This document shows positions 271 through 62,695 of a DNA stretch of 64,000 nt, piece after piece; positions within the stretch are counted from its first letter, which is position 1; every line of letters begins with the position of its first letter. Location of the stretch: contig JACPSZ010000008.1 in the NCBI GenBank assembly GCA_024860875.1, forward strand, positions 148,106-212,105, read 5' to 3'. The notes under the pieces are model-generated. The model saw nothing but the letters and a program-made list of their open reading frames with translations, did no database searches and was not told the origin of the DNA. Position numbers and translations under genes: made by a program. Source of the stretch: Nitrososphaerota archaeon. Lineage in GTDB: Archaea; Thermoproteota; Nitrososphaeria; Nitrososphaerales; UBA57.

Positions 271-1275
271 TTACCTCGCTGGGACTGTGCTTATCTGCAA
301 AATCTTGGGAGGTTCACTCTTCACTTTTACGGGTCGAGAAGGAAGTTTGAGTGTGACCAGCCTCTTGATAGGACCAGGTACGGAACCCTTCACTATCAGA
401 TAGTCGCTCTCAACTTTCCCAAAGTGCAGGAAATCTCCCGCTGGAGTTATTGGGTGATCCTTAGCATTTGCAATTGCGAGTATCCTCTTGTTTTTGTCCA
501 TGCGCTGATGGAAGCCCATCTGACCTGCTCTGGGCACTGTATACATGATAGTGCTCGGGTGCCATGGATTTAACACACCGACTGCCCTTACGCTCTTGCG
601 AGACTTGTGCTGCTTTCGCTTTACGCCCATACGTGTGACAGGACCTTCAAAACCCTTACCTTTTGTAACTGCGATAGCATCGACCATCATGCCAGCTTTC
701 AAAACATCGCTGGCCTTAATGCTCTTTCCAAGCATGGATTTTGCATATTCTACTTGTGCCTTTATGTCACCACCGCCGATTTCGATCTCGAAAACGAATG
801 GCTTCTTCTGCGATAGCCCTGCATCTTCAGGCTTCACAGAAATCAAAGCAGAGACCTGCTTTACCTTTGATATGTTGTCAATAACATGCTTAATTTTCTT
901 CTCGGAATCTTTTGCATTTATCTTGAACTTCCTTTCAAGCTCCTTTGGGAGGTTTTCGACAAAAACATCGGTGAAAGGTTGCATCCCATCATAGCCGTGC
1001 GAATAGGCTCTGAAACCGATTATCGTTATTGGAACAGTTGCCAAGACTGTGGAAGCATTGAACAGGGGCTTGCCAAAATTGGGCGTCTTCTCCCTGTCAT
1101 CAAGAGTTATGACATGGATACTTCCAGCTTTGAAGGCCGGAACGCCTAGAATTGTTGGTTTGTCAGATGATGTTGCAGGCCAAGTCCTCACTCTGGGGAT
1201 GAGCCTCTGCCTTCTTGCCCTCGGGATAAAGGCAAGGGAGCCCCTTCTTGGAGAACTGTGCTTTCGATGACCCAT
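271..1275 (-). CDS. rpl3: Ribosomal protein L3 (uL3)
   Basis: Full-length archaeal L3 of 334 residues, a core protein of the 50S subunit near the peptidyl-transferase centre. It starts MGHRKHSSPRRGSLAF, the typical archaeal N-terminus, and carries the conserved GKGFEGPVTRMGVKRKQHK core and the basic loop with GFHQRMDKNKRI. The start ATG at 1275 fits the family. It is followed by L4 after five bases and preceded by S25e, whose stop lies about 60 bases upstream, so the head of the ribosomal operon may begin with S25e or with L3 itself. In many archaea a SPOUT methyltransferase (COG2106) precedes L3; here that gene is elsewhere, at 17.7-18.5 kb. Confidence 0.97.
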   Translation of the reverse strand: MGHRKHSSPRRGSLAFIPRARRQRLIPRVRTWPATSSDKPTILGVPAFKAGSIHVITLDDREKTPNFGKPLFNASTVLATVPITIIGFRAYSHGYDGMQPFTDVFVENLPKELERKFKINAKDSEKKIKHVIDNISKVKQVSALISVKPEDAGLSQKKPFVFEIEIGGGDIKAQVEYAKSMLGKSIKASDVLKAGMMVDAIAVTKGKGFEGPVTRMGVKRKQHKSRKSVRAVGVLNPWHPSTIMYTVPRAGQMGFHQRMDKNKRILAIANAKDHPITPAGDFLHFGKVESDYLIVKGSVPGPIKRLVTLKLPSRPVKVKSEPPKILQISTVPAR

Positions 1276-1334
1276 AGACTATCAGCAAACAGATTATACG
1301 CTATCATTCATTGCCTTTTTAAGTATTCTTGCAC

Positions 1335-1673
1335 CTAGCCAGCTTTTGCCAGTTGCCAGATGTAGTGGCCGCTGTATCCTCCTACCCTTTTGATCGTAGA
1401 TTTAGACTCTAAACCCTTCAGAAATGTCGTTGCGACAGATGCATTAATATTCAATGCCTTTGCAGTTTTGTAAATCGTGATAGCCTTCATTCCCCCGAAA
1501 ATCTTTGCAACTTGGCTATCATCCATCTTGGGAATTGAGATGGACTGCAATTTTTGCTGCTGTAGAGATTTATCTGCCTTGCCTGATTTTTTCTCCTCCG
1601 CCTTCTTTGGCTCATCTGTCTTACTCTGAGTTTTCTCTGCCTGTGCTAGAGGTTTCTTCTTGGTTCCGCCCAA
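1335..1673 (-). CDS. rps25e: Ribosomal protein S25e
   Basis: Small-subunit protein S25e, 112 residues. The first 45 residues are a Lys/Glu/Ser-rich low-complexity tail (GGTKKKPLAQAEKTQ) and the rest is a winged-helix domain ending SGHYIWQLAKAG, with the family pattern of a helix pair and an SKSTIKRVGG turn. S25e is found in eukaryotes and in Thaumarchaeota and some other crenarchaeal-side lineages but not in euryarchaea, so it is a useful taxonomic marker. It lies upstream of L3 on the same strand with a 59-base gap. The tail suggests rRNA contact outside the folded domain. Confidence 0.93.
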   Translation of the reverse strand: MGGTKKKPLAQAEKTQSKTDEPKKAEEKKSGKADKSLQQQKLQSISIPKMDDSQVAKIFGGMKAITIYKTAKALNINASVATTFLKGLESKSTIKRVGGYSGHYIWQLAKAG

Positions 1674-1907
1674 TTTCTATTCTGCTCTTTGTCAGAAGAG
1701 GGCAGAAATATAGTTTGCCTTTACTGCTGTGCCCGCCCCTGCACAACAACGGACGAGGGGTAGCGATGGAGTGGAAGATAGAAAACGATGTTGATGAAGT
1801 GGTGCTAATTTTATGTTATTTTGCCTTTCATTATTATTAATAGAAATAATAGTGGAGTAGAGTACTCTGTTCAACAAAATTAGAACAAAAATTATGGGAA
1901 AGAGAGG

Positions 1908-2183
1908 TTACCTGAACCTTCTCTCGTCCTTTGCCCTGACCTTGACCAATCCGAAGTGAACTGCACACGATACACAGTAGTGCTTCAGCGTCCTGCTCGT
2001 TGCAATGTACGCTCCCTGCGCCCTCAGCTCCCTCGCAAGCATCGGTTCTACCAAACCTACCCTCGTTGTGAGTTTCTTGGCCTTGTCCTTTGGGACTAAG
2101 GTTCCGCAGTTGCTACATTGTACTAAGTCTGATCGTCCTTTGCCGCCCTTTGAACGGCCTCTGCTCTTGCGCTTCTTTGTCAT
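1908..2183 (-). CDS. rps26e: Ribosomal protein S26e
   Basis: Small-subunit protein S26e, 91 residues from the ATG at 2183 (MTKKRKSRGRSKGGKGR). An upstream in-frame extension to 2261 exists but its 26 extra residues do not resemble the family and would run into the promoter of the divergent kinase gene. The core has a zinc-binding CSNCG pair and a second YCVSC pair, about 50 residues apart, as in S26e. The protein sits at the mRNA exit channel in eukaryotes. S26e together with S25e supports a thaumarchaeal host. It is divergent from the PfkB kinase at 2249; the 65 bases between must hold both promoters. Confidence 0.94.
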   Translation of the reverse strand: MTKKRKSRGRSKGGKGRSDLVQCSNCGTLVPKDKAKKLTTRVGLVEPMLARELRAQGAYIATSRTLKHYCVSCAVHFGLVKVRAKDERRFR

Positions 2184-2248
2184 TATGTTCGCTTGGCACA
2201 GCATGGAATTCACATGCATAAATCTTATGCCCTTCGACCCCCTGTACT

Positions 2249-3142
2249 TTGCACCTTGCAATAGTCGGCCACATCGCTATTGACACTATAGCGTTGAAAG
2301 GCTCTGAGGTTTCCTCATTGGGAGGGCCTCCGTGCTATGCAGGTTTGACTGCAAAGAGGCTTAATTCTGAGGTTACTCTTGTTACCAAAATTGGTGCAGA
2401 TTTCCCTGATGAATACCTGCTCTGGTTAGCTCGGAATGGCATAAACTTTGCAAAAAATTCCAAATCTCTTAACAGCAAAACTACTAGATTCAAAATTAAT
2501 GTAAGAAAAGAGGGTAGGAGTTTACAGCTAACTTCAAGGTGTAAAGAGATTGAAGCTTCCCAGCTTAATGGTTTGGATGTTGACGGAGCAATATTGAGCC
2601 CCATAGTAGGCGAGATACCAAAGGAAGTTTCCGACGCAATAGTTTCAAAAGGGATTACAACATTTCTTGACCCGCAGGGCTATTTGCGAAAGTTCGACAA
2701 AAAAGGGTTCTGCAGCCTTGGAAAACTCTCTTTGAGCAAACTGCCAAGGACATCTGTAATAAAAGTAGACCCCGAAGAAGGTTACATTCTAACTGGCACT
2801 TCAAACTTACATGACATAGCCCTGAAGTTGAGAAAACATGGTTTCGAAAATGTCGTAGTTACCAATGAAGCAAAAAACGTAATCGTAGCATCAGAAGAAA
2901 GTGTCGTAGAGCTGAAGGTTCCAAAGGTGAATGTTAATGATACTACAGGTCTTGGCGACATACTTGCAGGCTCTTTCATGGCCACGTATCTCAAAACAAA
3001 CGACTTTCTCTGGTCTGCGTGTGCTGGTGTAGCGTGTGCCTCTTCTGCATCTAAAGGTAAGGGAATAAACAAAATAGATCAGATCAAAGATTGGGAAGAT
3101 ATTGCAGAGGAGGTTAAAGAAGAGATGAAGAAACTTGCTTAG
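2249..3142 (+). CDS. PfkB-family sugar/nucleoside kinase
   Basis: A 297-residue ribokinase-fold kinase. The N-terminus LAIVGHIAIDTI and GGPPCYAGLTAKRLN match the substrate-side motifs of the family, and DTTGLGDILAGSF is the second PfkB signature with the catalytic Asp and anion hole. The start is a TTG at 2249, chosen because it gives the canonical hydrophobic first strand; an A/T-rich box (CATAAATCTTATG, about 2215-2228) lies at a suitable distance for a leaderless transcript. The substrate cannot be read from the sequence: ribose, fructose phosphate, nucleosides and others are all handled by relatives. It is followed 40 bases later by an unknown protein. Confidence 0.88.
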   Translation: MHLAIVGHIAIDTIALKGSEVSSLGGPPCYAGLTAKRLNSEVTLVTKIGADFPDEYLLWLARNGINFAKNSKSLNSKTTRFKINVRKEGRSLQLTSRCKEIEASQLNGLDVDGAILSPIVGEIPKEVSDAIVSKGITTFLDPQGYLRKFDKKGFCSLGKLSLSKLPRTSVIKVDPEEGYILTGTSNLHDIALKLRKHGFENVVVTNEAKNVIVASEESVVELKVPKVNVNDTTGLGDILAGSFMATYLKTNDFLWSACAGVACASSASKGKGINKIDQIKDWEDIAEEVKEEMKKLA

Positions 3143-3182: not shown

Positions 3183-4178
3183 TTGCCAAAGAAGAGACTG
3201 ATTCCCGAAGAGATAGAGAAGCATCTCACTGATGCAGGCTTAAACTCAATAGCTTTGATAGGATGCAGGAGCACGGGAAGGTTTCACCCCTGCTGCGAGT
3301 TCGACGTTTTTGTAGATGTGAAGGACAATACTGTTAGGCATGAAGTAATAGACTCGAAGTTTATTGATATCATCCCTATTCCGACCAAGCCTAGCGAATC
3401 CGATCTGTTCAATGCCCTGCAGATGAAGGTAATTTCCGATCCATCTCTGCTTTTTGCAGCTCTGCAGCGGGACGATCAACGAATAGTTGCAGAGGGCTAC
3501 GGCCTCTCCAGATTGTTGGAGGCAATCTCCGCGATAAAGAAGGCCGAAAGCTGCAATATTGAGAAGAATTTTGTCGATGCTTCCTTTTGGCTGAATTTCG
3601 CTGGCTACGGCCTTGCAGAAGCTGCAGTCTCCACACATGCGATGTCAGTGCATCCTACGCATTTGCTTGACGACATAAGAGAGGCTTTCATGGAGATTGG
3701 CGCTCCTCAAGAAACTTTCTTTGAAGCCATAAACCTGCAGTCTGCAAGCAGGACATCTGTAGAAAGGAGACTTGAAGGCATGAACCAGATAATACTCTCA
3801 AGTCTGCAGATTCAGGAGGGATCGCCAGAAAGCATTTACATTTATTCGAAGCAGCTTAACCAAAAGGTTTCGTGGCTTCTTAAAAATCACGCAGTCCTTC
3901 AGGCTCAAACCTTTCTCGGCTACCACGCTATTAGAATGGTGAAAATGATGTACAGCAGGTTCTGCAGGGAAATGGGAATACCGGAGCATCATAATAGACT
4001 CGTTGCAGAACTTTTGGAAAGAGGGGAAAGGCCATATAGAATTTCGCAGGATTCTTTCAGGCTTCTTGGGATACAAAGCGAGGTTTCCTCGATGACATCT
4101 GTTGCACAGCATCTAAGATCATTGGCAGAAGCTGTCAGAAGGACTATAGCTGGCGAAAGGCTCAGCATGAAACAGTGA
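3183..4178 (+). CDS. Unknown protein with degenerate nucleotidyltransferase-like N-terminus
   Basis: A 331-residue protein starting at TTG 3183 (MPKKRLIPEEIEKHL). Residues about 20-45, with ALIGCRSTGRFHPCCEFDVFV, resemble the GS...(S)DxD strand-turn of MNT-type nucleotidyltransferases, although the second Asp is uncertain (EFD). The remaining 250 residues look almost wholly helical, a layout reminiscent of MNT/HEPN-type proteins, but I do not recognise the helical part. No signal peptide or membrane segment. It lies between the PfkB kinase and the EF-1A-like gene with short gaps (40 and 43 bases), all on the plus strand, so it may share their transcript. Function unknown. Confidence 0.7.
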   Translation: MPKKRLIPEEIEKHLTDAGLNSIALIGCRSTGRFHPCCEFDVFVDVKDNTVRHEVIDSKFIDIIPIPTKPSESDLFNALQMKVISDPSLLFAALQRDDQRIVAEGYGLSRLLEAISAIKKAESCNIEKNFVDASFWLNFAGYGLAEAAVSTHAMSVHPTHLLDDIREAFMEIGAPQETFFEAINLQSASRTSVERRLEGMNQIILSSLQIQEGSPESIYIYSKQLNQKVSWLLKNHAVLQAQTFLGYHAIRMVKMMYSRFCREMGIPEHHNRLVAELLERGERPYRISQDSFRLLGIQSEVSSMTSVAQHLRSLAEAVRRTIAGERLSMKQ

Positions 4179-4221
4179 ATCTTGCTTAATAACTTCCCTC
4201 CATGTTCCGAGCAGACCGGCA

Positions 4222-5140
4222 ATGAAATCGTTCAACTTTGCGGTGCTTGGCGACGCCTCTATTGCAGATCAGCTTGGGAAAGCGGGTCCAAAGAGTGACA
4301 TCACTTTTTACGAAAAGAAGACATCTGACAGCATATTTTGTTTTATTGCACCTTCAAGTTTCCCAGATAAGGTTCAACCTCTAATTCAAACTATTGCACT
4401 TTCAGAATATGTCATATTGAATCCTACAAAAATAGACAAGGCTCTGGGCGAGCAGATCGTTGCGCTCGACAATATGAAAATTGAGAGAGGTTTCATAATT
4501 TCTAGCTGGCTAGACGAGGAATTAAGAAAGTTCATCAGATCTACGATACTAGAAAAGTACCAGTTTGTTGCTCTTGATGAATTAAGGCAGAAGATTGAGA
4601 ATCTCCCAGAGATTAGACAGAACGGTCAGGCAAAGGTTTTGGTCGACGCTTCGTTTGAAGTAAAAGGTGTAGGAACAGGAGTTCTTGGAGTTGTAAGGAG
4701 GGGAACGATAAAACAGCACGACGAATTGGAGGTTTCCCTCAAAAAAAAAAAAGCCCGTTTCGGTAAGGTCAATACAGATGCACGATGATGATGTCGAGTC
4801 TGCACCTTCCCCAGCAAGAGTCGGTTTGTCGATAAAAGGCTTGACTGCAAAAGAGATAGACAGAGGAGATGTTATTGGAGCGCCAAATTCCCTTCAAATA
4901 AGTAACGAGTTGAGGATAAAGTTCCAGACGAACCGCTTCTACAAAGGCGAAATCAATCCATCTTGGACGTACCATCTCTGCATCGGTCTTCAAATCAAAC
5001 CTGTTATAATTAAGATGAATAATGGGATGATGATATCTTCCGACAAGCCCGTAACATATGAGCCAGATGAACATTGCATAATGCTTGATCTAAATTCAGC
5101 ATCTACGAGAGTGGTAGGAAATGGTACAGTTACAGGCTAA
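4222..5140 (+). CDS. EF-1A/SelB-like translation GTPase paralogue, broken in frame at an A12 run
   Basis: Two adjacent frames together encode one EF-1A/SelB-like protein of about 305 residues. Frame one runs from ATG 4222 to 4788. Its family-like sequence stops at a run of 12 A (4741-4752) after LEVSLKK, and dropping one A lets the reading continue as PVSVRSIQMHDDDVESA..., the classical EF-Tu domain-2 motif VRSIQ-H-D-V, through RVGLSIKGLTAKEIDRGDVI to the stop at 5140. Domain 1 is degenerate: no GKS/T P-loop and no NKxD, so it probably does not bind GTP. Non-GTPase EF-1A paralogues are known in archaea. The split may be transcriptional slippage, programmed shifting, a real mutation or a base-calling error. 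Confidence 0.8.
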
Positions 5141-5179
5141 AGGCTTAACTACATACTTTCGAGTCTTTATTGAGTCAGA

Positions 5180-5884
5180 TTGCAAGGCGTGATTCTGGCA
5201 GGAGGCTTAGGAACGAGGCTCAGACCATACACTCTATTCCTACCGAAGCCCATGCTCCCTTTGGGTGACAAGCCTCTTCTGCAGCATCTTATCGAATGGC
5301 TGAAGAGGAACGATGTTACAGAATTTACCATCTGCGTAGGCTACCTCCGCAAGAGTATAGAGGAATATTTTGAAAATGGCAAGGAGTTAGGAGTTTCAAT
5401 CAATTACGCAAGGACTAACAAACCATTAGGCACCGCTGGCCAACTAAAATCTGCAGAATCTCAATTAAAAGGAAGCTTCGTCTGTATCTATGGGGATTCA
5501 ATATTAGACTTCAAGCTCAAAGATGCAATGAAATTCCACGAAAAGAAAAAAGCCCTTGCAACGATGATATTAATGGAATACAAAACAAATCTCAGATACG
5601 GGTTCATAGAGCTTAATGGAGAAGGGAGGGTAAAGGCGTGGAGAGAGAAGCCCGAAGTCAAAGGAATGATAAACGTTGGATGCTACATAATGGAAAAGCG
5701 CTTTTTGAAGTATATCCCCAAAGAGAAGATGTACGGCATGGACATCGCTTTTAGAAATGCCATCGATGCTGGGGAGAAGATCTATGGTTATCCTGCAAAG
5801 GGCACCTTCAACGACATTGGAGACAAAAGGTCCTACGCTTCTGCCTACGAGAAATACCTTAGCGAGCTGGGCAAGATACTGTGA
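5180..5884 (+). CDS. Sugar-phosphate nucleotidyltransferase
   Basis: A 234-residue NTP-transferase. The N-terminus VILAGGLGTRLRPYT is the nucleotide-binding GGxGTRLxPxT loop, followed by PKPMLPLGDKPLLQH with the conserved Lys, and YGDSILDFKL holds the metal-binding Asp. This short single-domain form resembles glucose-1-phosphate or mannose-1-phosphate nucleotidyltransferases without a left-handed beta-helix; which sugar and nucleotide it uses is open. The start is a TTG at 5180. Its TGA overlaps the GTG start of the next gene, so the two are translationally coupled. The whole 5.2-8.2 kb group likely makes activated sugars for glycans or N-glycosylation. Confidence 0.9.
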   Translation: MQGVILAGGLGTRLRPYTLFLPKPMLPLGDKPLLQHLIEWLKRNDVTEFTICVGYLRKSIEEYFENGKELGVSINYARTNKPLGTAGQLKSAESQLKGSFVCIYGDSILDFKLKDAMKFHEKKKALATMILMEYKTNLRYGFIELNGEGRVKAWREKPEVKGMINVGCYIMEKRFLKYIPKEKMYGMDIAFRNAIDAGEKIYGYPAKGTFNDIGDKRSYASAYEKYLSELGKIL

Positions 5885-7101
5885 GCCTAATCGTCTTTGA
5901 GGATTCAATAGTCGAAAACTTTTACCCGCTCACTCTGACGAGGGCAGGATTCGAGCTACTTTTTGGTACGAAGACTCTGCTAAGTGGCTTGACGCAGAAT
6001 CATGACGATGTTTCCGTCTATGTAAGAGGCTATCTAAGAAATGTCCTGAAGCACAGATTGAAGCACAAAATAAACAGCGTAGAGCGTGATGGCGATGCAC
6101 TAGTCGTTAATGGTTTGATTAATTCTTCCAAAACTAAAAGGATTCTTGGCAGAGAGGGAAGGTTCGTAGCAGTATCAGGAAATAACGTTGTAGCAGCAAG
6201 AGTGCCTGCAAGATACATTTCTGGTTCTGGTGATTATCCTCTGGCTAAGCTTGCAACTCTGAAGGAATTTGACATATTGAAAGCTGATGAATCGACCCTC
6301 TATAGACATCCGTGGGAACTTGTCGATGACAATGCAAAGGCTATTGAAGAGCAAACCAAAGGTTTCCAAAGTGCAAAAACTGATGTTTTCATAAACGGCC
6401 CTCGGAGCAGAGCCATGGTATCGACAAAAGCGGAGATCGAATCTCCCGTTGCAATTGATACCCGTAAAGGGCATGTAGTCATTGATGCAGGAGCACACGT
6501 AGATGCAATGACGAGGTTAGAAGGGCCGTGCTACATAGGCAAGAACACGAAAATCCGCTCAGCACAGATAGGAGAGGGGACGAGCATAGGAGATTTTTGC
6601 GTCATAGGAGGAGAAATTGAGCATTCCGTCATCCAAAGCTACGCCAACAAGGCACATCTGGGATATCTCGGCCATTCCATAGTGGGCTCTTGGGTCAATC
6701 TTGGAGCACTAACAACAAATTCGAACCTGAAAAACACATACGGCGAAATCAAGATCAATGACATATCCACAAAGCGTATCAAAGTTGGAAGCTACATAGC
6801 GGACAACGTTAAAACAGCAATAGGAACTTTAATCCTTGCAGGTAAGAAGATCGGAATAACGTCACACGTGTACGGCCTCGCTGCAGAAGATGTCCCATCT
6901 TTTACAATATACGCAAAGACTCTTGACAAAAGACCTGTAGAACTAGAACTGCAATCAGCGATAGAGACGCAGAAGCGCATGATGGCAAGAAGAGGGGTCA
7001 TGCAGAATAGTGATTATGTAAACTTGCTAAAGCATATTTTCAAAATGACTATAAATGAGCGGCGACACATGAAGGTAAGTCGAGAAAAGTTCAAAATCTG
7101 A
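5881..7101 (+). CDS. GlmU-like UDP-N-acetylglucosamine diphosphorylase/acetyltransferase
   Basis: A 406-residue protein of the alternative GlmU type. The first half begins SLIVFEDSIVENFYPLTLTR, typical of this branch, where the nucleotidyltransferase domain lacks the usual GGxGTR loop. From about residue 190 hexapeptide repeats form a left-handed beta-helix (IGKNTKIRSAQIGEGTSIGD; YANKAHLGYLGHSIVG; LGALTTNSNLKNTYG), the acetyltransferase half. It starts with GTG overlapping the previous stop by four bases. Such proteins finish UDP-GlcNAc synthesis in archaea. Because the N-terminal loop is degenerate, the pyrophosphorylase step may be shared with the preceding gene product; that is inference. 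Confidence 0.82.
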   Translation: MSLIVFEDSIVENFYPLTLTRAGFELLFGTKTLLSGLTQNHDDVSVYVRGYLRNVLKHRLKHKINSVERDGDALVVNGLINSSKTKRILGREGRFVAVSGNNVVAARVPARYISGSGDYPLAKLATLKEFDILKADESTLYRHPWELVDDNAKAIEEQTKGFQSAKTDVFINGPRSRAMVSTKAEIESPVAIDTRKGHVVIDAGAHVDAMTRLEGPCYIGKNTKIRSAQIGEGTSIGDFCVIGGEIEHSVIQSYANKAHLGYLGHSIVGSWVNLGALTTNSNLKNTYGEIKINDISTKRIKVGSYIADNVKTAIGTLILAGKKIGITSHVYGLAAEDVPSFTIYAKTLDKRPVELELQSAIETQKRMMARRGVMQNSDYVNLLKHIFKMTINERRHMKVSREKFKI

Positions 7102-14489: not shown

Positions 14490-14762
14490 TTGCGAAGATC
14501 CTTTGCAGAAATTGCATTTGACGTCCTCCGTTTGATTGCAACTGGTCGATCTGCTAAGACTAAGCTTATGCTGGGAGCGAACACTAGCTCACCTACTTGC
14601 GAAAAGGCTTTGGATAGACTAAAAGAAAAAGGGCTAATCATTCCCAAAGATCAAAGTTTTCTCCTTACTCCCAAGGGTGCTCAAGTTCTGGATTCATACA
14701 AGCAATCAGTAGGGGAGATATTCCCAGAACTCTTAAAAGAAGACATAGCCCTGCTATGGTAA
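14490..14762 (+). CDS. Small winged-helix regulator
   Basis: A 90-residue winged helix-turn-helix protein from TTG 14490. The pattern is helix-helix-recognition helix-wing: FDVLRLIATGRSAKTKLML, SSPTCEKALDRLKEKGLI, then SFLLTPKGAQVLDSY as wing and final helix. This is the layout of the ArnR1/COG3432-type archaeal regulators. It ends 52 bases before the PQQ dehydrogenase gene on the same strand and is a candidate local regulator of it. The dehydrogenase has its own A/T-rich box, so the two need not share a transcript. Confidence 0.78.
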   Translation: MRRSFAEIAFDVLRLIATGRSAKTKLMLGANTSSPTCEKALDRLKEKGLIIPKDQSFLLTPKGAQVLDSYKQSVGEIFPELLKEDIALLW

Positions 14763-14814: not shown

Positions 14815-16989
14815 ATGAGTCCAAAAGACTCGACTACAGAAAAACGGTATGTTGTGAAGGCATTATCTGTAATAGTAACGGTATTACTCCTCGTATCCCC
14901 TCTAATAGCAATCTCTTCAATGATTGTTCCTGCAAACGCGCAAGTAGCGCCGCCACAGATACCTGTTCTGACCCCAGCGGCCCAACAAATGTCCAAAGAC
15001 GAAAGGAATTGGGAATATATAGCTAGTGGAAGGCTAGGCGGAAATTACAATCCCCAGAAACAGATTACCAAAGACAATATCCAATATCTTGAACTAAAGT
15101 GGATATGGCCTGTGCCATCCTTGGGTAGGATACCTGGTCAAGTCCTACAAGGCTTTGGGACAAACCCTGCAGAAGGTGTGAAGGCTCCCCCACTTGTTGT
15201 AGATGGTGTTGCCTACGTAATCCTGAACAGCAAGACTGTCATCGCTCTGGACGCAAAGACGGGCAAACAAATATGGGTGACCCCTGTTGTAGCTAGCAAC
15301 ACCAACAACTCGATTCAGGCAGGCGGCAAGTATCCCATAACAACTGAAGGCTCGCACACGCATGGCATGAATTACATCGATGGCCAAATATGGATCACTG
15401 ATTACGGCTGCGCTGTGACAGTCCTAAATGCAAAGACAGGAAAAGTTGACAGGCAATATAGAGATCTATGCTTAGAAATTCCTATTAACGATCCGAGAGG
15501 AGTAGGAATACCTACAAACAGCGGATGGTATGGCAGTCTATTTGGGTTCCCTCCAACGGTTTACAAGGGCGGTAATTCATTCTTTTACGGGCAAGGAGGA
15601 GCATCCGAAGGAACTTGGGGAGGAAGACTTTATGCGGCCATGTACGACATTAATACTGGAAAGCTCATATGGAGAACGTTCTTAATGCCGCCATGCGGAG
15701 ATCCAAAGACGTGCGGACCCGGTAAAGATGGGCCATTATTCGTCAAAGAGAAACAGGAATGGGGGCAATGGCTTGTCGATAACTGCAACAAGATATGGAT
15801 ACAAGGTATAAAGGCTTGTGAAATAGACCGGGACATACTAAGAAACGACTGGGGAGACATGAGATCGAATTCGGGCATAAGCCAAATCTGGTCAACTGGT
15901 ATGGTAGATGAGGAAACTGGCATTGTATACTTTGGTACGGCTCAAGCAGGACCAGACTGGAACAAGACCTATGCACCTGGCCCCAATCTCTTCGGCGCAT
16001 CAATCATAGCACTGAATGCAAAGACTGGAGCATTGGTATGGGCTCATCAGACAAGCGCGCATGACCTCTGGGACTACGACTGCTCATGGAACGGCGTGCT
16101 GGCTACTGCAAAGGTAAAGGGACAGACGAAGAAGGTGGTAATGAAGGGATGCAAGAACGGTATCGTATACATACTTGATGCAGCTACTGGCGAAGCGTTG
16201 TGGGTCTTTGAACCTCCATCCATAAAGAGAACTCCGAATGCTTACCCATATAATCCTAGGAGCAAGGAGGATATGACAAAGCCGTGGCTAGGCTATCCAA
16301 GCAAAGACTCATTCTGGTTGAACTGCCCTGCTGGTGGATGCCTCGAATCTGACATCGCTTACGACCCAACAAGAAATACGGTCTACTTTGCTATACAGAA
16401 CCCTCCAAGTTGGTCGAAGGTGGGGCCTGCAGAGATAAGAGGAGTGAGCCTTGCATCGGCACCCGCAGGAACCAGGCCATACATACCCAAAGTTAACTAT
16501 ACCGTCAACGCATATGATCTGGATACAGGGAAACTGAAATGGGAGTTCACTTCAACCGTCGGAGTTGGTTACAGAGGAGGCATAATGGCGAGCGGAGGGC
16601 TCGTATGGCCCACATCGCAAGACGGCTTCTTCCGTATACTTGATGCTGACACCGGAAAAGTAGTGTTCGAGAAGCAAGAGCAAGGAAACGTGCAACCAAG
16701 CATAGGTGCAACTGCGGACGGCAAGTTGATAGTGCTTAGGTACATAGGAGACGGTAACCTCCCCGGAGCAATTGCTGCCTACGGCCTGCCTGACAATGTA
16801 CCAGCACCAAAAGAAGTGATCAAAGAAGTCATAAAGGAAGTTCCCAAGGAGGTGATCAAAGAAGTACCAAAAGAAGTCATCAAGACCGTAACAGTCGAAA
16901 CTGTCAGCCCCATATCATATGCTGCAATAGGCATAAGCGTAGTCATACTCGTCATTGCAGGAGTTCTCTTCACAAGAAGAAAGAAGTAA
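14815..16989 (+). CDS. Surface-anchored PQQ-dependent (quinoprotein) dehydrogenase
   Basis: A 724-residue beta-propeller dehydrogenase acting outside the membrane. Residues 15-42 form a signal or membrane segment ending PANAQ. The propeller carries repeated quinoprotein motifs (VVDGVAYVILNSKTVIALDAKTGKQIW region, then NAKTGALVWAHQ). SAHDLWDYD places the presumed catalytic Asp at 420 and a second Asp at 422, the DxD pair seen in lanthanide-dependent enzymes such as XoxF and PedH, where calcium enzymes have Ala or Ser. A Lys-Glu-Val stalk (KEVIKEV repeats, about residues 666-690) leads to a C-terminal membrane anchor and RRKK. Substrate (an alcohol or sugar) unknown. An AATAAATA box lies 33 bases upstream of the ATG. 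Confidence 0.9.
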   Translation: MSPKDSTTEKRYVVKALSVIVTVLLLVSPLIAISSMIVPANAQVAPPQIPVLTPAAQQMSKDERNWEYIASGRLGGNYNPQKQITKDNIQYLELKWIWPVPSLGRIPGQVLQGFGTNPAEGVKAPPLVVDGVAYVILNSKTVIALDAKTGKQIWVTPVVASNTNNSIQAGGKYPITTEGSHTHGMNYIDGQIWITDYGCAVTVLNAKTGKVDRQYRDLCLEIPINDPRGVGIPTNSGWYGSLFGFPPTVYKGGNSFFYGQGGASEGTWGGRLYAAMYDINTGKLIWRTFLMPPCGDPKTCGPGKDGPLFVKEKQEWGQWLVDNCNKIWIQGIKACEIDRDILRNDWGDMRSNSGISQIWSTGMVDEETGIVYFGTAQAGPDWNKTYAPGPNLFGASIIALNAKTGALVWAHQTSAHDLWDYDCSWNGVLATAKVKGQTKKVVMKGCKNGIVYILDAATGEALWVFEPPSIKRTPNAYPYNPRSKEDMTKPWLGYPSKDSFWLNCPAGGCLESDIAYDPTRNTVYFAIQNPPSWSKVGPAEIRGVSLASAPAGTRPYIPKVNYTVNAYDLDTGKLKWEFTSTVGVGYRGGIMASGGLVWPTSQDGFFRILDADTGKVVFEKQEQGNVQPSIGATADGKLIVLRYIGDGNLPGAIAAYGLPDNVPAPKEVIKEVIKEVPKEVIKEVPKEVIKTVTVETVSPISYAAIGISVVILVIAGVLFTRRKK

Positions 16990-37096: not shown

Positions 37097-40000
37097 CTAG
37101 AGCGGGTAGTCGAATCTCTGCCTTCGTCCTACTGGCTCATGGGGCCTGCGTTCCGTATAGGTCAAGCCCAGCATGACCATCGCCATAGCTGCTGCAACTG
37201 CTGCGTGCACACCATAGATGTCTAGGAAGCCGACATCGTAAATTCGTGTGACTGCCTCAGATTCTATTCCATCTGCAATTATCTGCGATGCGACTCTATA
37301 TTTTCCAGAAGTTGCAATCGGGAATCCTAGCGGAATTTCTTGCATGTTTGCAACATCTACTGAGAGCGACTTTATGCCAGAGGTTATCGTGTTGCCCTCC
37401 GGGTCCATTAACCAGTACTTGAAGACGACATTGCTCGATCTGTCGCCCATATTTATCAAACTTGCCGCAGTGAGTATCTGTGCCTGTGGGACTATCTCTA
37501 ACCTGCTCCAACTTGGCAGAACCTTTCCCATACCTATCACTACGTCAAATAATCCTATTGTAACGGGCTTGTTCATTATGGCCCACTTGCTAAAGTGAGT
37601 AATATCCTCGCTCGTTTCTAAATAGTGCTCAACCTCGTTTACTACACTTGCAACAGGCCTCCACTGTTGCAGTGACTCAGAGAAGGTGTATAGCCAGAGG
37701 TCCGATGGTTGTAGACCAAGAGTTCGCATTTGTTCTGAGCTATAATAGAGCCTTACTTTTGCGTTGAAATTCGTCTGTATGCTCATAGTGATTTCTACAG
37801 GCGTACCTACGATTGTGTGGCTCGAAGGCGGAGCTATACTCTGAACGTCTGCTAAGGGTTGGACGATTACGTTTGCGGCGTTGTCAATCTTTGTTATCAT
37901 AACTGCTGCGTTTGAAGTCGACCTTGCGTTGACCATTAATGGTTCGTTCGGACTGACGAGCTGTGGGGCAGCTATAGCAACTAGTGTCTGCTTTACTGGA
38001 CCAATAATGTGAGCTTCAAGCGTCTTTACAATGACGCTCATGGTGTCGGTAATCGTTCTGTATATGTTAGAGGTAGCCTGTGAAGCAATGCTCATAGCTA
38101 TATTGTCACCTATTGGCGCTGTCAGTTTTGCAAGACGGCCTATGGTGTCAGATAGGTTCAGTGTTTCAGCAAGCTCGACAAAGTTAGGTATGCTTTTTGT
38201 AAGGCTATCGACAACCCTAACGATATCTTGTAGTTGTAAGTTTATTGTGATAGTTCGTGCCAACTGCTCGGCAATCTGGATCGTCTCGGTCAGGAGCACT
38301 TGTTGAATGTATGTGCTTGTCAGGGTATCTATGTTTTCTATTTGATCAGCTAGCCCTCTTAGAAGATTTGTATTAGATGATGCTTCTCCAGCGACTCCGA
38401 GGACATCCTCAATTGCGACCAAGAAGGAGAATGGAGGCTTTATGATTGGTTGGGTAGGCTGTTGCTGCCCCTGTCCTGTTGAAGATACATCTACGAATAG
38501 CAAAGATTGGATTATGCTTCTGAGAGAGATCAAACCTCTATTTACATTTTCCGTAATGGCTATGGTTTCAGCCAGTTGAGGCCATAAGCTCTTGTTAATT
38601 ACATCGCTGAAACTTAGTCCATCGCTTATTATTATTGGAGAGAACGATTGAAATCTGCTTGCTACATCGCTTAGCGTGAGAGATTCTGTTATGGAAAGTG
38701 ACGCTACATACATTCTGCTTATGGATTCGCTTATGGAAAGTGCTTGCGAGATTACCCTGTCTAATGCAATAGCTCGCTCTACGGTATCTGCAAAAGAGCT
38801 CGTGTCGCTGATGCCCCTTGCAAAGTTCGCGAAAATATCAGCCATATCTGCAAGCGTTGCAGTTTCTGTCAGCCCTCTTACCAACTCTACAGACCTTTCT
38901 ACTGTCTCCGAGACTGCCATGGTTTGGTCAATGCTTCTGCTAAATTCTACAACCCTGTTTAGAGCATCGGAAATTACAGGAACTTCAGCGACTGTTCTTG
39001 TTGAAACTAGAGCCCTGTCAAGAGAATCAGACATGGACGTGCTCTCGTCTGCAGTTCTGGATAACCCGAGCATTCTTGCAATCGAATCGGAAACAGTTAA
39101 CGCTTGATCAATGCTTCTGGTCATGGCTGCTAGCCTATCTATTGCATCACTGATAGATACTGAATCTGCGACTTCTCTTACAAAGTTGTTTAGGGAGGCT
39201 ACTGCATCGGTTATTACAGTTGTGTCAGTGATTCCTCTTGTCAGATCAATTGCCCTCTCAAGAGAGTCGGATATGGAGAACGATTGAGCTACATCCCTTG
39301 TCAGTGCGATGGCTCTATCGACTGTATCGCTTATTGTAGTCGGATCTGCCATTGATCTGATGAATCCGCCTAATCCAGCAGTTGTGTCTGCAAGAATTGC
39401 TGTGTCTGTTGCAGTTCTAAAAAGTACTGTGATTCTGCCCGCGGTATCACTAAAGATAGTTGTATCAGTAACAGTTCTGAATAATTCCAGCGTCGAGGCG
39501 AGAGTGTCAGATATTGTACTAGAATCTGCAATTTCTCTTGAAAAGTTAGTTAAGGAAGATACTGTATCCGACACTGTCAATGCTTGGTCAATGCTTCTTG
39601 CCATTACTACTAACCTGTCCGCAACATCAGTGATCGTTGCTGTGTCTGCGATCGTCCTTGCAAAATTGCTCAGAGATGATGCTACGTCAGCTAATGTAGA
39701 TGAGTCTGCAATTGATCTTGATAGAGCTATTGCTCTATCTAATGTTTCAGATATGGAAATTGATTGAGTCATATCTCTACTGAGCACAAGAACTCTGTCA
39801 ACTGTATCGCTGATTGTAGATGTGTCTGTTATCAGTCTAATGAAGCCCCTTACTCCATCCGTAGCATCCGTGAATGTGGAAATGTCTGTAATTTCCCTCG
39901 TTAATGCTACTGTTCTGTCCAAAGTTTCGGATATGGAGAGCATCTGAACCACGTCTCTGCTTAGTGTAAGTGCTCTCTCGATTGTGTCAGTAATTGTAGC

Positions 40001-42139
40001 AGAATCTGTCATTGATCTGATGAATCCTCTTAATCCTTCTGCAGTCTCCGTGAACACTGCAGTTTCTGTTGCATCTCTAAAGAGTACCGTGATTCTGTCT
40101 GCTGTGTCGCTGAAAGTTGCTGCTTCCGAAACAACCCTGAATAAGTTGAGCATTGAAGTCACAGTGTCAGATACAGTGCTGGAGTCTGTAACTGTTCGTG
40201 CAAAGTTGCTAAGCGAGGTTGCTACGTCAGAAACTATCAGTGATTGGCTTATGTTTCTGGTAAGAACTGCAGCTCTGTCTACAGTATCGCTAAAGGTGCT
40301 GGATTCTGCTACTGTCCTGAACAAGTTAAGTGTCGAAATTACCGTGTCAGATATTGTACTAGAGTCAGTCATTGCCCTAGCAAAGTTGCTCAGATATGAT
40401 GCTATATCAGTAATTGTAGTTGTGTCAGTAATTCCTCTTGTCAGATCAATTGCCCTTTCTAAAGTTTCAGACATGGATATCGCTTGAGATATGTCCCTGC
40501 TCAATGCAATTAATCGGCTTGCAGCATCAGTGAATATCGTTGGATCAGTTATGGTTCTAATAAAGTTAGGCATGCTAGTTATTGCATCTGCAATTGTTGG
40601 ATTCTCTGTTAGAGACCTTGTTAATTGCGTGAACCTCTCTACTGTGTCGCTTATCGTACTTGAATCAGTAATCGCCCTAACAAAGTTAGGCAAGCTTTCC
40701 AGAGTGTCAACCACGCTTGCAGCGTCTGCCATGCTTCTGGAGAGCAATATTGCTCTCTCTACCGAATCGGAGAAGACCGGAGTTTCGTCCGCCGTTCTGT
40801 AAAGCAGGACTGTTCGTTCTATAGAATCTGCTAGCGATACTGTTTCTGTTGCGCTCCTTGCAAGTGCTACCACTCTTGCGATTGAATCTATGAATGCAGG
40901 ATTGTCTGTAACTTCCCTTGCCATTGTTACAAGTCTTGTGATATCGTCAGATACGCCCAGAAATTCTGCTAGAGCTCTTGTAAGTTCCACTACCCTTGTA
41001 GCTTCGTCTGAGAACGATGCGATGTCTGCCAGGCTCCTTGTCCCTGTGAACTGCCTGTTGATCTCGTCTGTGTATGTAGAAAGCTCTCCAACCGATCTAA
41101 AGAGAGAGGCCATTCTTGCTATAGAGTCGCTCATTGTTGGATTTTCTTCCAAAAGGCGTGCCAAATTGAGCATCCTGTCTACGCTGTCAACGAATGTTGC
41201 AGTTTCGGCCATTGCCCTTGTGCCTACGAAGAGTCTTGCCAGGTCGTCGCTTACCGTCAGCGATTCTGATCCCGTTCTTGGGAAGTGGACCATTCTATCA
41301 ATTGCGTCAGATATTGTTGGGGTTTCTGTCATGCTTCTTGCTACAATGATGGCCCTCTGTAATGAGTCTGTAATCGATGGCGTTTCTGTAACCTGCCTTA
41401 CTAGCGTGGTCGCTCTGGCTATGTCATCTGACAAGGTGATGGTATCGTTAATTCTTTTGAGAACACCGAAGACTTTATCCACAATTTCAGACCATGTCAT
41501 GCTGTCGCTTATGCCTCTAACTCCTGCCATTCCTCTGCTTGAAGAGTCCGATGTAGTTACCGTCTCGCTCATGCTTTTTGAAAAAGCCTGCGTATAGTAG
41601 ACCGTAACTCTTATCCAATTTACCCTTCTGGCCCTCGTATCGTCTGTTCCCAACTTGACGGTGAATGAAGCAGAGTTTATGTCAGAAGCTACCCATGACA
41701 GGCCCCACAAGGCTGAAGAACTGCCATAGGTATTGATATTCTGTCCAGAATCACAAGATTGATTTGCTAGATTATCTTCTGTAGTCTCAGTTCCAAGAGT
41801 GCTTTCATCTTTGCCAACATTTACGAGCAGGCCAGCAGCTGGATTAACCCCTTTGCTCGCCTTGACCTCAACGGTTATGCCCGTAATTGTAGCGTTAGAG
41901 GGAATATTAAAGCTGAAGCTCTTCCAAAAACCTGATATGGCTGACGCTGATGTTGCACATGCAGTTTCATCGCTACCGTTAGCATCATTTGGATTTGTCC
42001 AAGAATTTGTGCCTGCAGCTCCAGCATAGAGAGGTCCACTTGAGTTATCAGCAAAAGCTGGCTGAATTGGAGGATCGAAATGAGAAATAAGAGTGGTGAG
42101 GCTAAGCAGGATTATAAAAAAACCCGCGCTTGTGCGCAT
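37097..42139 (-). CDS. Giant anchored surface protein with 47 exact 20-residue repeats
   Basis: A 1680-residue extracellular protein. Signal peptide at residues 1-30 (FFIILLSLTTLISHF, then AFADN), a beta-sandwich domain to about 190 (AGAAGTNSWTNPNDANGSDE), then repeats at 229-1168, each 20 residues with pattern [TAS]-[DE]-x-x-[ST]-h-[ST]-D-x-h-x-R-h-h-x-L-x-R. After a Gln/Pro-rich link come more degenerate repeats and a C-terminal beta-rich region (YYSSEQMRTLGLQPSDLWLY), a membrane helix (AAVAAAMAMVMLGLTY) and a basic tail. Thaumarchaea have comparable repetitive surface proteins. Likely adhesin or S-layer-like spacer. Forms a unit with the gene 41 bases upstream. Confidence 0.88.
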   Translation of the reverse strand: MRTSAGFFIILLSLTTLISHFDPPIQPAFADNSSGPLYAGAAGTNSWTNPNDANGSDETACATSASAISGFWKSFSFNIPSNATITGITVEVKASKGVNPAAGLLVNVGKDESTLGTETTEDNLANQSCDSGQNINTYGSSSALWGLSWVASDINSASFTVKLGTDDTRARRVNWIRVTVYYTQAFSKSMSETVTTSDSSSRGMAGVRGISDSMTWSEIVDKVFGVLKRINDTITLSDDIARATTLVRQVTETPSITDSLQRAIIVARSMTETPTISDAIDRMVHFPRTGSESLTVSDDLARLFVGTRAMAETATFVDSVDRMLNLARLLEENPTMSDSIARMASLFRSVGELSTYTDEINRQFTGTRSLADIASFSDEATRVVELTRALAEFLGVSDDITRLVTMAREVTDNPAFIDSIARVVALARSATETVSLADSIERTVLLYRTADETPVFSDSVERAILLSRSMADAASVVDTLESLPNFVRAITDSSTISDTVERFTQLTRSLTENPTIADAITSMPNFIRTITDPTIFTDAASRLIALSRDISQAISMSETLERAIDLTRGITDTTTITDIASYLSNFARAMTDSSTISDTVISTLNLFRTVAESSTFSDTVDRAAVLTRNISQSLIVSDVATSLSNFARTVTDSSTVSDTVTSMLNLFRVVSEAATFSDTADRITVLFRDATETAVFTETAEGLRGFIRSMTDSATITDTIERALTLSRDVVQMLSISETLDRTVALTREITDISTFTDATDGVRGFIRLITDTSTISDTVDRVLVLSRDMTQSISISETLDRAIALSRSIADSSTLADVASSLSNFARTIADTATITDVADRLVVMARSIDQALTVSDTVSSLTNFSREIADSSTISDTLASTLELFRTVTDTTIFSDTAGRITVLFRTATDTAILADTTAGLGGFIRSMADPTTISDTVDRAIALTRDVAQSFSISDSLERAIDLTRGITDTTVITDAVASLNNFVREVADSVSISDAIDRLAAMTRSIDQALTVSDSIARMLGLSRTADESTSMSDSLDRALVSTRTVAEVPVISDALNRVVEFSRSIDQTMAVSETVERSVELVRGLTETATLADMADIFANFARGISDTSSFADTVERAIALDRVISQALSISESISRMYVASLSITESLTLSDVASRFQSFSPIIISDGLSFSDVINKSLWPQLAETIAITENVNRGLISLRSIIQSLLFVDVSSTGQGQQQPTQPIIKPPFSFLVAIEDVLGVAGEASSNTNLLRGLADQIENIDTLTSTYIQQVLLTETIQIAEQLARTITINLQLQDIVRVVDSLTKSIPNFVELAETLNLSDTIGRLAKLTAPIGDNIAMSIASQATSNIYRTITDTMSVIVKTLEAHIIGPVKQTLVAIAAPQLVSPNEPLMVNARSTSNAAVMITKIDNAANVIVQPLADVQSIAPPSSHTIVGTPVEITMSIQTNFNAKVRLYYSSEQMRTLGLQPSDLWLYTFSESLQQWRPVASVVNEVEHYLETSEDITHFSKWAIMNKPVTIGLFDVVIGMGKVLPSWSRLEIVPQAQILTAASLINMGDRSSNVVFKYWLMDPEGNTITSGIKSLSVDVANMQEIPLGFPIATSGKYRVASQIIADGIESEAVTRIYDVGFLDIYGVHAAVAAAMAMVMLGLTYTERRPHEPVGRRQRFDYPL
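38636..41455 (-). repeat. Tandem array of 47 units of 60 bp inside the giant gene
   Basis: From the codon for the Arg at residue 229 to the Pro at 1168 the coding sequence is divided into 47 consecutive units of exactly 60 bases, with no insertion or deletion. Higher-order blocks exist: units 21-27 resemble units 32-38 in order, which means some expansion went by eleven-unit (660-base) segments. Units 17-18 also resemble 37-38. Confidence 0.9.
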
Positions 42140-60274: not shown

Positions 60275-62695
60275 TCATATTAGGTAGAAGAGCGGGAAGA
60301 GGAATATCCATATGATGTCGACTATGTGCCAGTAAAGGCCGAAGTTATGGATATTTTCGCTTCCATGTTCACCCATATGCCTGCCTTTTAGGGCTCCTCC
60401 TATGAGGATCGTCATTGCGGCGAGTCCTCCAATCACGTGCGCTCCATGCGCTCCCGTAGTAATATAGTAGGTGCTCATAACGACCCCGCTATCGAAGGTG
60501 TGTCCTTCGTGGAACAATTCCTGCCATTCAGTTGCCTTGTTATAGAGGAACCAGAGACCAAGGAATATTGTCAATAGAAGTGATCCTATTACGCCTGCCT
60601 TTGATTCTCTTTTTGAATAGACCAGTGCCATCACTGCAGTAAAACTACTTGTAAGCAGAATGAAGGTGTTGATTGCACCGTGTTGTATTTGAAATACAGT
60701 ATTAATTGCAGGCCAATCTAGCGTTCCTGCCCGTATGAAAATGTAAGCGCCTATGAATGTTCCAAATAGTATCACTTCTGAAGCGAGGAATACCCATACT
60801 CCCATCCTCACCCTTGCGACGTGTTTGAACGGCCACCCTTCAGCTTCCTCGTCTTCGAAAGATACGAACTTTTCTTTGGCAAAGCCGTAGAGCCCCAAAC
60901 CCCCAAGTATGAAGCCGGTCAATAATATCCAGAGATACAACATGCCTTCAATAAACGACGCTGTTGGAAGTAGAGTGACCCCCAATATTCCTAGTATAAG
61001 GGTAAAGGCCGCTCCAGCTAGTGCGACGGGCCACTGGCTTAGGTGGCTCTCCATAATCCCATGTTCTGCATGTGCAGTACTCATAGTATGTGTTCCTCCA
61101 TTGGCAAATGCTCCGAGGCCAGGCAGGCTTATCGTGCCATCTTCAGAGAACCTTGGCGTGACATCGAAGTCATTTTGAGGAGGCGGGGATGGAACCGCCC
61201 ACTCGAGCGTAAAGCCATTCCACGGGTTTGATCCTGCGGGCGCTCCAGTCTTTGAGCTTTCGTAGAAGTTGTAGAGCATGAGGATTTGAGCAAGGCCGAA
61301 GACGAACCCTCCAATAGTTGACAAATAGTTCGTGAAGGCCCACTGGGTTTCTGTGAAAGTGACAACACGCCTAGGCATTTCGTAGTTCATGAACATCGGG
61401 AAATAAAGCAAAGTGAAACCGATTACAGAGAGTACGAAGTGGGCCTTGCCGAGACCCTCGTCATACATCTTCCCAGTGATCTTCGGATACCAATAATAGA
61501 ATGCGCCAAAGAGTGCGACTACACCTCCCCCGACCATTACATAGTGGAAGTGTGCCACGACGAAGTAGGTTCCTCTTAGTGCATAATCAAGAGCTACAGA
61601 TCCTAAGAACACGCCCGTAATGCCGCCTACAATGAATAGTGCTATAGAACCCAAAACAAACAGCATAGGTGTTTTGAGCCTAACCTTACCCTTTACAAGC
61701 GACTCGATCATGGCGATCACTATGATGTCAAATGGTAGAGAAATGGCAATTGTAGTCACCGTGAATATTTTTGCGACTAAGGGATCGTAGCCGGTCACGA
61801 ACATATGGTGTCCCCAGACTCCAAAACTTAGAAGAGCTACAATTATGAATGACATGATGATGTACTTTCTACCGTATAGCGGTCTTCTTGTAAATGTCGG
61901 GATAATGTCACCGATTGCCCCCATAGCAGGGAACAGAACAACGTACACTTCTGGGTGGCCGAAGAACCAGAAAAGATGGTCCCAAAGCAGTGAACCGCCT
62001 TGCGGTGAGCCGAAATACATAGTACCAAGAGTTCTATCCCCCATTAACATAATAGTTCCTGCAAGTAACGATGGGAATGCGTAAAGCATCATGAATACAG
62101 TTAAGAGGATTGTCCAAGTGAACATCGGCATCTGCATCAGTTTCATGCCTGGAGCGCGCATCTTCAGAATAGTTGTAATAAAGTTGACAGAACTTACTGT
62201 TATCGATACGATAAAGAGAATAAGACCACCGGCAGCTAGGCTGAGACCCAGGTTAGGCGTGAACCTCAGTGTTGTTAGGGGGGCATAGAGCGTCCAGCCT
62301 CCGTCTGGCAAGCCTGCTGCAGAACTCATTAAGAGCAATATACCGCTGAAGAGGTATAGCCAATAACTCAGAGCATTGATCCTAGGAAATGCAAGGTCTC
62401 TCGCCCCTATCTGTAGAGGGACAATCCAATTTGCGAATCCGAATGCAAACGGGGACAGGAACCACAGCACCATTATGAGTCCATGAGTGGTAAATGCCTG
62501 ATTGAATGCAGAGCTTGCGATGAAGTTGTTGTTAGGCACTGTAAGCTGCACCCTAACAAGAAGTGCTAATGCGCCTCCAACGAAGAGGAAGTATAGTGAT
62601 GTAACTATGTAGAGTGAACCTATGTCTTTGTGATTAGTAGAGAACAGCCATCTCTTAATTGAGTAAGATGGTGGTATATGGTGTTCCTCGCTCAT
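60275..62695 (-). CDS. Haem-copper oxidase, fused subunits I and III
   Basis: An 806-residue fusion. Subunit I: FSTNHKDIGSLY start, His ligands in QAFTTHGLIM (haem), GHPEVYVVLFPAMG (CuB with Glu and the cross-linked Tyr), GHHMF and FVVAHFHYVMVGG. The GHPEVY Glu indicates an A-type, proton-pumping enzyme. After about residue 540 there is a linker, two helices, then subunit III (KHVARVRMGVWVFLASEVIL and following helices). Fusions of this kind are known in archaea. Reduces oxygen to water at the membrane. Overlaps the subunit II stop by four bases. Confidence 0.95.
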   Translation of the reverse strand: MSEEHHIPPSYSIKRWLFSTNHKDIGSLYIVTSLYFLFVGGALALLVRVQLTVPNNNFIASSAFNQAFTTHGLIMVLWFLSPFAFGFANWIVPLQIGARDLAFPRINALSYWLYLFSGILLLMSSAAGLPDGGWTLYAPLTTLRFTPNLGLSLAAGGLILFIVSITVSSVNFITTILKMRAPGMKLMQMPMFTWTILLTVFMMLYAFPSLLAGTIMLMGDRTLGTMYFGSPQGGSLLWDHLFWFFGHPEVYVVLFPAMGAIGDIIPTFTRRPLYGRKYIIMSFIIVALLSFGVWGHHMFVTGYDPLVAKIFTVTTIAISLPFDIIVIAMIESLVKGKVRLKTPMLFVLGSIALFIVGGITGVFLGSVALDYALRGTYFVVAHFHYVMVGGGVVALFGAFYYWYPKITGKMYDEGLGKAHFVLSVIGFTLLYFPMFMNYEMPRRVVTFTETQWAFTNYLSTIGGFVFGLAQILMLYNFYESSKTGAPAGSNPWNGFTLEWAVPSPPPQNDFDVTPRFSEDGTISLPGLGAFANGGTHTMSTAHAEHGIMESHLSQWPVALAGAAFTLILGILGVTLLPTASFIEGMLYLWILLTGFILGGLGLYGFAKEKFVSFEDEEAEGWPFKHVARVRMGVWVFLASEVILFGTFIGAYIFIRAGTLDWPAINTVFQIQHGAINTFILLTSSFTAVMALVYSKRESKAGVIGSLLLTIFLGLWFLYNKATEWQELFHEGHTFDSGVVMSTYYITTGAHGAHVIGGLAAMTILIGGALKGRHMGEHGSENIHNFGLYWHIVDIIWIFLFPLFYLI

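Follow-up and report, generated by a model that had tools for sequence, protein, structure and literature searches.

An anchored D-x-D quinoprotein from a thaumarchaeal paralog expansion and its possible use of a lanthanide

We describe a gene, found in a 64,000-nucleotide stretch of archaeal DNA (the window), whose product is genuine and well formed and belongs to an expansion of archaeal quinoproteins that is already published. This product is quite probably a membrane-anchored, outward-facing PQQ-type alcohol or sugar dehydrogenase, and use of a lanthanide by it is possible. The heterotrophic thaumarchaeon that carries the gene has about 35 paralogs of this kind, the present one included. 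Lanthanide use has been demonstrated only in bacteria within the part of the literature covered here, and lanthanide counts based on the D-x-D motif would be strongly affected by archaea such as these, in which dozens of paralogs carry it. The points most worth following are a pair of cysteines flanking the active site, the differences in metal ligands among the paralogs and a PqqC-only pattern of PQQ synthesis genes.

The gene, its fold and its paralogs

The open reading frame at 14815-16989 on the forward strand encodes 724 amino acids and carries DYD at residues 420-422, as the preliminary description of this DNA had said. Its identification there as an archaeal quinoprotein is borne out by a PF01011 profile match of 180.7 bits (gathering cut-off 26.7; 6.9e-53) and by the propeller fold of an AlphaFold2 model built from a 44-row alignment (mean pLDDT 83.5, pTM 0.83). 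Among solved structures the top sequence matches are quinohaemoprotein alcohol dehydrogenases (ADHs) and XoxF. The protein falls far under the cut-offs of TIGR03075, the PQQ-dependent methanol/ethanol dehydrogenases (177.3 bits, cut-off 480.05), and of TIGR03074, the membrane glucose dehydrogenases (130.6 bits, cut-off 832.65), and under that of TIGR04528, the 'acido-empty-quinoprotein' group A (145.9 bits, cut-off 650), which is its second-best NCBIfam match. All 27 PQQ-ADH entries among the structural matches listed for the model take ranks 1-27, with Z of 29.3-32.8 over 446-509 residues. In the comparison with XoxF and PedH that had been proposed, the fold of the model agrees with theirs (6dam, Z 32.3; 6zcw, 31.7) but does not single these enzymes out, since the calcium enzyme 4cvb (32.8) and 1kb0 (32.7) are tied with them and the fold match thus does not tell the metals apart.

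The propeller lies between two hydrophobic segments. Residues 7-34 (14833..14916, forward strand) form a helix in the model, with a hydrophobic window of 2.58, that may be a signal peptide or an anchor. Towards the other end, a KEV-rich stalk at residues 666-690 (16810..16884, forward strand) precedes a membrane helix, predicted from the model and from hydrophobicity, at residues 700-723 (16912..16983, forward strand) beside a terminal RRKK; the KEV stretch and this helix uphold the earlier claim of a surface stalk and C-terminal anchor. The stretch 677-698, partly stalk, has pLDDT below 50 in the model. The stalk would raise the propeller off the membrane.

The host genome (1.67 Mb, 91.6% complete) has 70 PF01011 matches, which resolve into 35 PQQ-ADH-like open reading frames (ORFs) that take up 4.5% of its length (75.6 kb). 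These were chosen from 42 ORFs of at least 380 amino acids by removing 7 that were unrelated or weak BamB-like propellers; one of the 35 runs off its contig (L009), one is open at the 5' side of its stretch (L038) and one is short at 637 amino acids (L067). The stalk, scored as at least four KEV or KEI within the last 180 residues, occurs in 23 of the 35, and 33 have a hydrophobic segment at the C-terminus. The stalk-and-anchor module recurs at 48-85% identity in most of these paralogs, although many of them are over their full length only 33-45% identical to the window protein, and it is also found in a few ORFs beyond the 35. We considered the KEV stalk as the mark of a dedicated electron carrier and rejected this, since the other stalk matches read in the genome are not cupredoxins: by eye, from their translations, they resemble quinoprotein remnants, small surface ORFs and one NHL-like propeller. 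ORFs that carry the stalk and do not resemble quinoproteins lie at L149 (2175-3431, reverse strand), L148 (1131-1706, forward) and L150 (1702-2253, forward), one of them being the NHL-like case; the stalk seems to serve more generally as a spacer at the cell surface. In phage records there were no more than 5 matches, all weak or partial.

Apparent degenerate quinoprotein remnants at 1969-2493 of L145 and about 1900-2500 of L146, both on the reverse strand and at least one ending in stalk and anchor, point to gene birth and death within the expansion. The named relatives from a genome scan are mostly thaumarchaeal metagenome-assembled genomes (MAGs), including ATL, ASW8 (ASW8_bin1), UBA223, SAT139, ALOHA and several with a groundwater label; Calditenuis and Caldarchaeum are further named relatives.

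Within the window itself, a small winged-helix gene (14490-14762, forward strand; HTH_45) lies 52 bases upstream of the quinoprotein gene on the same strand, its product just short of the Sso10a family cut-off. The reverse strand encodes, at 60275-62695, a fusion of heme-copper oxidase subunit I with a COX3 domain (PF00115, PF00510) and, at 37097-42139, a 1680-residue ORF that has no Pfam match at 1e-5.

Metal ligands and a cysteine pair

Residues were compared in an alignment of 112 archaeal rows, made up of the 35 paralogs and 77 of 78 relatives (one lacks the region), and 8 of 9 bacterial rows, one again lacking it. Because a D-x-D-C pattern was used in part to collect the archaeal relatives, the unbiased motif counts are those of the 35 paralogs. 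Asp420 (16072..16074, forward strand, as are all codons below) is aligned with the catalytic Asp (MxaF D303, XoxF D299, Escherichia coli glucose dehydrogenase (GDH) D466) and Asp422 (16078..16080) with the lanthanide Asp, XoxF D301. Sequence and profile alignments agree in setting Asp422 opposite its lanthanide-binding counterpart in XoxF (6dam) and PedH (6zcw), where the preliminary description had put it. Asp is kept at 420 in 93 of the 112 rows and at 422 in 101, so that DYD is no chance string; among the 35 paralogs the counts are 27 and 30, with both residues in 27 and the full DYDC in 23. Trp359 is present in 105 archaeal rows, and Lys447 (16153..16155), in the column of MxaF Arg331 and E. 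coli GDH Lys493, in 101 (31 of the 35 paralogs).

Gln377 (15943..15945) occupies the column of the metal ligand Asn256 of XoxF (Asn261 of MxaF), which in the 35 paralogs holds D in 18, Q in 8, N in 4, A in 2 and E, V and S in one each. Glu265 (15607..15609) is the probable counterpart of the XoxF ligand Glu172, in an alignment ambiguous by 1-2 residues: HMMER and MAFFT both set the bacterial Glu opposite the neighbouring Ser264. Since 26 of the 31 rows having Gln377 carry a Glu in this ligand loop, we dropped the idea that the window protein had lost its Glu; judged by these residues, it most likely retains an E/Q/D/D ligand set (E265/Q377/D420/D422). None of the 18 paralogs with Asp377 has an acid in the loop, and among the 118 rows in our tree those with Asp or Glu at 377 lack an acid in the loop (residues 259-271) in 31 cases and have one in a single case. 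An acid swap at the metal site, with compensation of charge, was rejected as the explanation: the state at 377 changes only twice on the tree, and of 9 independent pairs differing in loop acid 0-1 differ at 377, so the pattern reflects shared descent and is not independent evidence.

The strict E/N/D/D set is found in only 5 of the 112 rows, one paralog from the host genome (L024; G000:C11:24909-28220, protein 673-2742, reverse strand) and four relatives 60-63% identical to it (L081, L083, L086, L092). Because it keeps this set, L024 is on its ligand residues a better archaeal lanthanide candidate than the window protein, and the best seen here. One genome thus allows a direct comparison of the window protein (E/Q/D/D), a stalked group with Asp at the Asn column and no Glu, and L024.

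In the dehydrogenase that we favour, PQQ would sit in the propeller against Trp359, a cation would be bound by Asp420, Asp422, Gln377 and probably Glu265, Lys447 would be placed near the quinone, and electrons from the substrate would pass through PQQ to either a quinone in the membrane or a blue-copper carrier. A narrower form of this reading, that the enzyme depends on a lanthanide as XoxF and PedH do, we consider a serious possibility that falls short of probable. It is consistent with the place of Asp422, with the persistence of Asp422 without Asp420 in 9 of the 112 rows (the reverse occurs in 1) and with an E/Q/D/D set that would give as many acidic ligands as XoxF has, and a 2025 ocean survey, in the text available to us, reads lanthanide binding directly from D-x-D (PMC11996626). 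Against it stand Gln for Asn, Lys for Arg, the lack of a vicinal Cys pair, the tied Z values of 6dam, 6zcw, 4cvb and 1kb0, and the better candidate L024. The motif had been offered as a divider between lanthanide and calcium enzymes, and here the preliminary description is not supported, since E. coli GDH shares the HDLWDxD context (HDLWDMD), with its D466 and D468 at the columns of Asp420 and Asp422; D-x-D is thus not diagnostic for lanthanides and cannot carry the claim alone. Surveys that count D-x-D need the further caution that in these archaea the remaining ligands vary from paralog to paralog.

The comparison with GDH raises a second reading, that of a calcium or magnesium enzyme with a glucose-dehydrogenase-like site, its second Asp being structural or an extra ligand to a divalent metal. 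E. coli GDH shows the same HDLWD-x-D context and likewise has Lys at the Arg331 position, a Lys found also in the quinohaemoprotein ADHs 1yiq, 1kv9 and 8gy2, and the E. coli membrane enzyme is active with divalent metals, Ca and Mg among them, according to the accessible part of the 2025 survey (PMC11996626). However, the window protein scores 130.6 bits against the TIGR03074 cut-off of 832.65, and the same portion of the survey predicts that membrane glucose dehydrogenase may itself be facultatively lanthanide-using (PMC11996626), so that the analogy is not clean; we regard this reading as conceivable but rather doubtful.

The D-x-D loop is flanked by Cys423 (16081..16083), directly after Asp422, and its candidate disulfide partner Cys446 (16150..16152), directly before Lys447; in the model a single hairpin (strands 427-434 and 437-445) has the two at its open end, and the pair flanks the active site. 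Both are present in 99 of the 112 archaeal rows, neither in 13 and a single one in none; for the unbiased 35 paralogs the figures are 30 with both and 5 with neither. The pair is present in all 92 archaeal rows that have both Asp420 and Asp422, and both cysteines are missing from all 8 bacterial rows. This exceptionless co-occurrence is suggestive of an active-site disulfide. On the tree there are only 3 changes, in each of which the two columns move together (sign test p 0.25), and Cys199/Cys219 shows a like pattern (both in 84 rows, neither in 27, one in 1). The pair is a new observation here; no mention of it was found in the parts of the literature on these quinoproteins covered in our search, in which it was not queried by name. 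A joint reading would make these proteins a separate thaumarchaeal design, in which Cys423-Cys446 ties the D-x-D metal loop to the strand whose Lys contacts PQQ and replaces the vicinal disulfide of methanol dehydrogenases, a trivalent lanthanide sits in E/Q/D/D (in the stalked paralogs, between three Asp) and PqqC makes PQQ from a scavenged precursor, a combination that we think improbable as a whole.

PqqC and the supply of PQQ

The window had been described as holding no PQQ synthesis gene, and this is correct for PqqC, whose homologues lie on contigs C8, C9 and C25, the window being on C6. The genome search that had been suggested found these three homologues, one of them over its cut-off (281 bits, cut-off 240) and matched by solved PqqC structures, and no PqqB, PqqD or PqqE over cut-off. 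The gene with 281 bits (3346-4068 of locus L070, reverse strand) is divergent from an adjoining quinoprotein gene (4151-6070, forward strand) whose product lacks the D-x-D pair (HDLAGHGC). PqqC homologues occur in 8 of 10 genomes of this archaeal family; PqqE, PqqB and PqqD profiles reached their cut-offs in 0 of 21 genomes, the host included, those for PqqE and PqqB, the two that the positive controls covered, doing so in 3 of 3 bacterial controls. The best PqqE match in the host genome (about 90 bits, cut-off 381) was not accepted because it scores higher as AhbC/NirJ1-like (543 and 537 bits, both under the cut-off of 650), nor was its neighbour, which matches TIGR04053 at 496 bits, over the cut-off of 395.

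The earlier suggestion that PQQ may be taken up is incomplete. With PqqC present and the other three not found over cut-off, plain uptake of the cofactor is not the sole option: the cell may complete PQQ from an imported precursor or follow another route, or PqqC may have another role. The supply of PQQ is unproven, these three genes not having been found over cut-off, and this must be weighed against the PQQ-dehydrogenase reading together with the TIGR03075 score far under cut-off, His183 in place of Arg109, the missing vicinal Cys pair and the rank of TIGR04528. Some of the same points would fit an 'empty' quinoprotein fold that has ceased to use PQQ and is retained as a scaffold at the surface or for a binding role, namely the weak TIGR04528 match, the 0 of 21 genomes and the loss of both Asp from some paralogs in the host genome. 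The retention of both Asp in 27 and of Lys447 in 31 of the 35 paralogs, and of PqqC beside a quinoprotein gene, argues against this, and we think it unlikely.

Comparison with known quinoproteins

The nearest published case is that of the heterotrophic marine Thaumarchaeota (HMT), for which Aylward and Santoro (2020; PMC7300363) report, in the portion available to us, 4-19 quinoproteins per MAG in 21 variants, with DYD in 4 and another DXD in 5 of the 21, a Cys-Cys motif in none, predicted membrane segments in 19, and a PQQ synthase gene in the genomes. DYD in this archaeal group has thus been in print since 2020, and the novelty is smaller than the preliminary description implied. A 2024 review restates the DYD point and, in its accessible text, gives the function of these quinoproteins as unknown (PMC11845868); from similar excerpts, such genes number up to 8 in Gagatemarchaeaceae, with pqqC inferred as an ancestral gain (PMC10640624), and a 2026 study found these genes highly expressed (PMC13374868). 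As far as the available text goes, the HMT quinoproteins and those of the window genome are alike in forming many divergent PQQ-ADH paralogs with DYD or DXD, without a vicinal Cys pair and with membrane segments; they differ in number, 4-19 per MAG there as against 35 ORFs here, 27 of them with D-x-D. Cys423/Cys446, the complete set of ligands and the failure to find PqqB, PqqD and PqqE do not occur in that portion of the HMT account (PMC7300363).

With XoxF (6dam, 4mae) and PedH (6zcw) the window protein shares the fold, Asp420, Asp422, Trp359 and the probable Glu ligand, at 23-25% identity in structural alignment. It differs from them in having Gln377 for Asn, Lys447 for Arg, and a membrane anchor and stalk, and in lacking the vicinal Cys-Cys that they hold above PQQ; from MxaF as well as from these two it differs in having His183 for Arg109 (MxaF numbering). 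The E. coli membrane GDH, Gcd, has HDLWD-x-D, a Lys at the Arg331 column and no vicinal Cys pair in common with it. Gcd has several membrane helices, unlike the window protein, whose model has one N-terminal helix.
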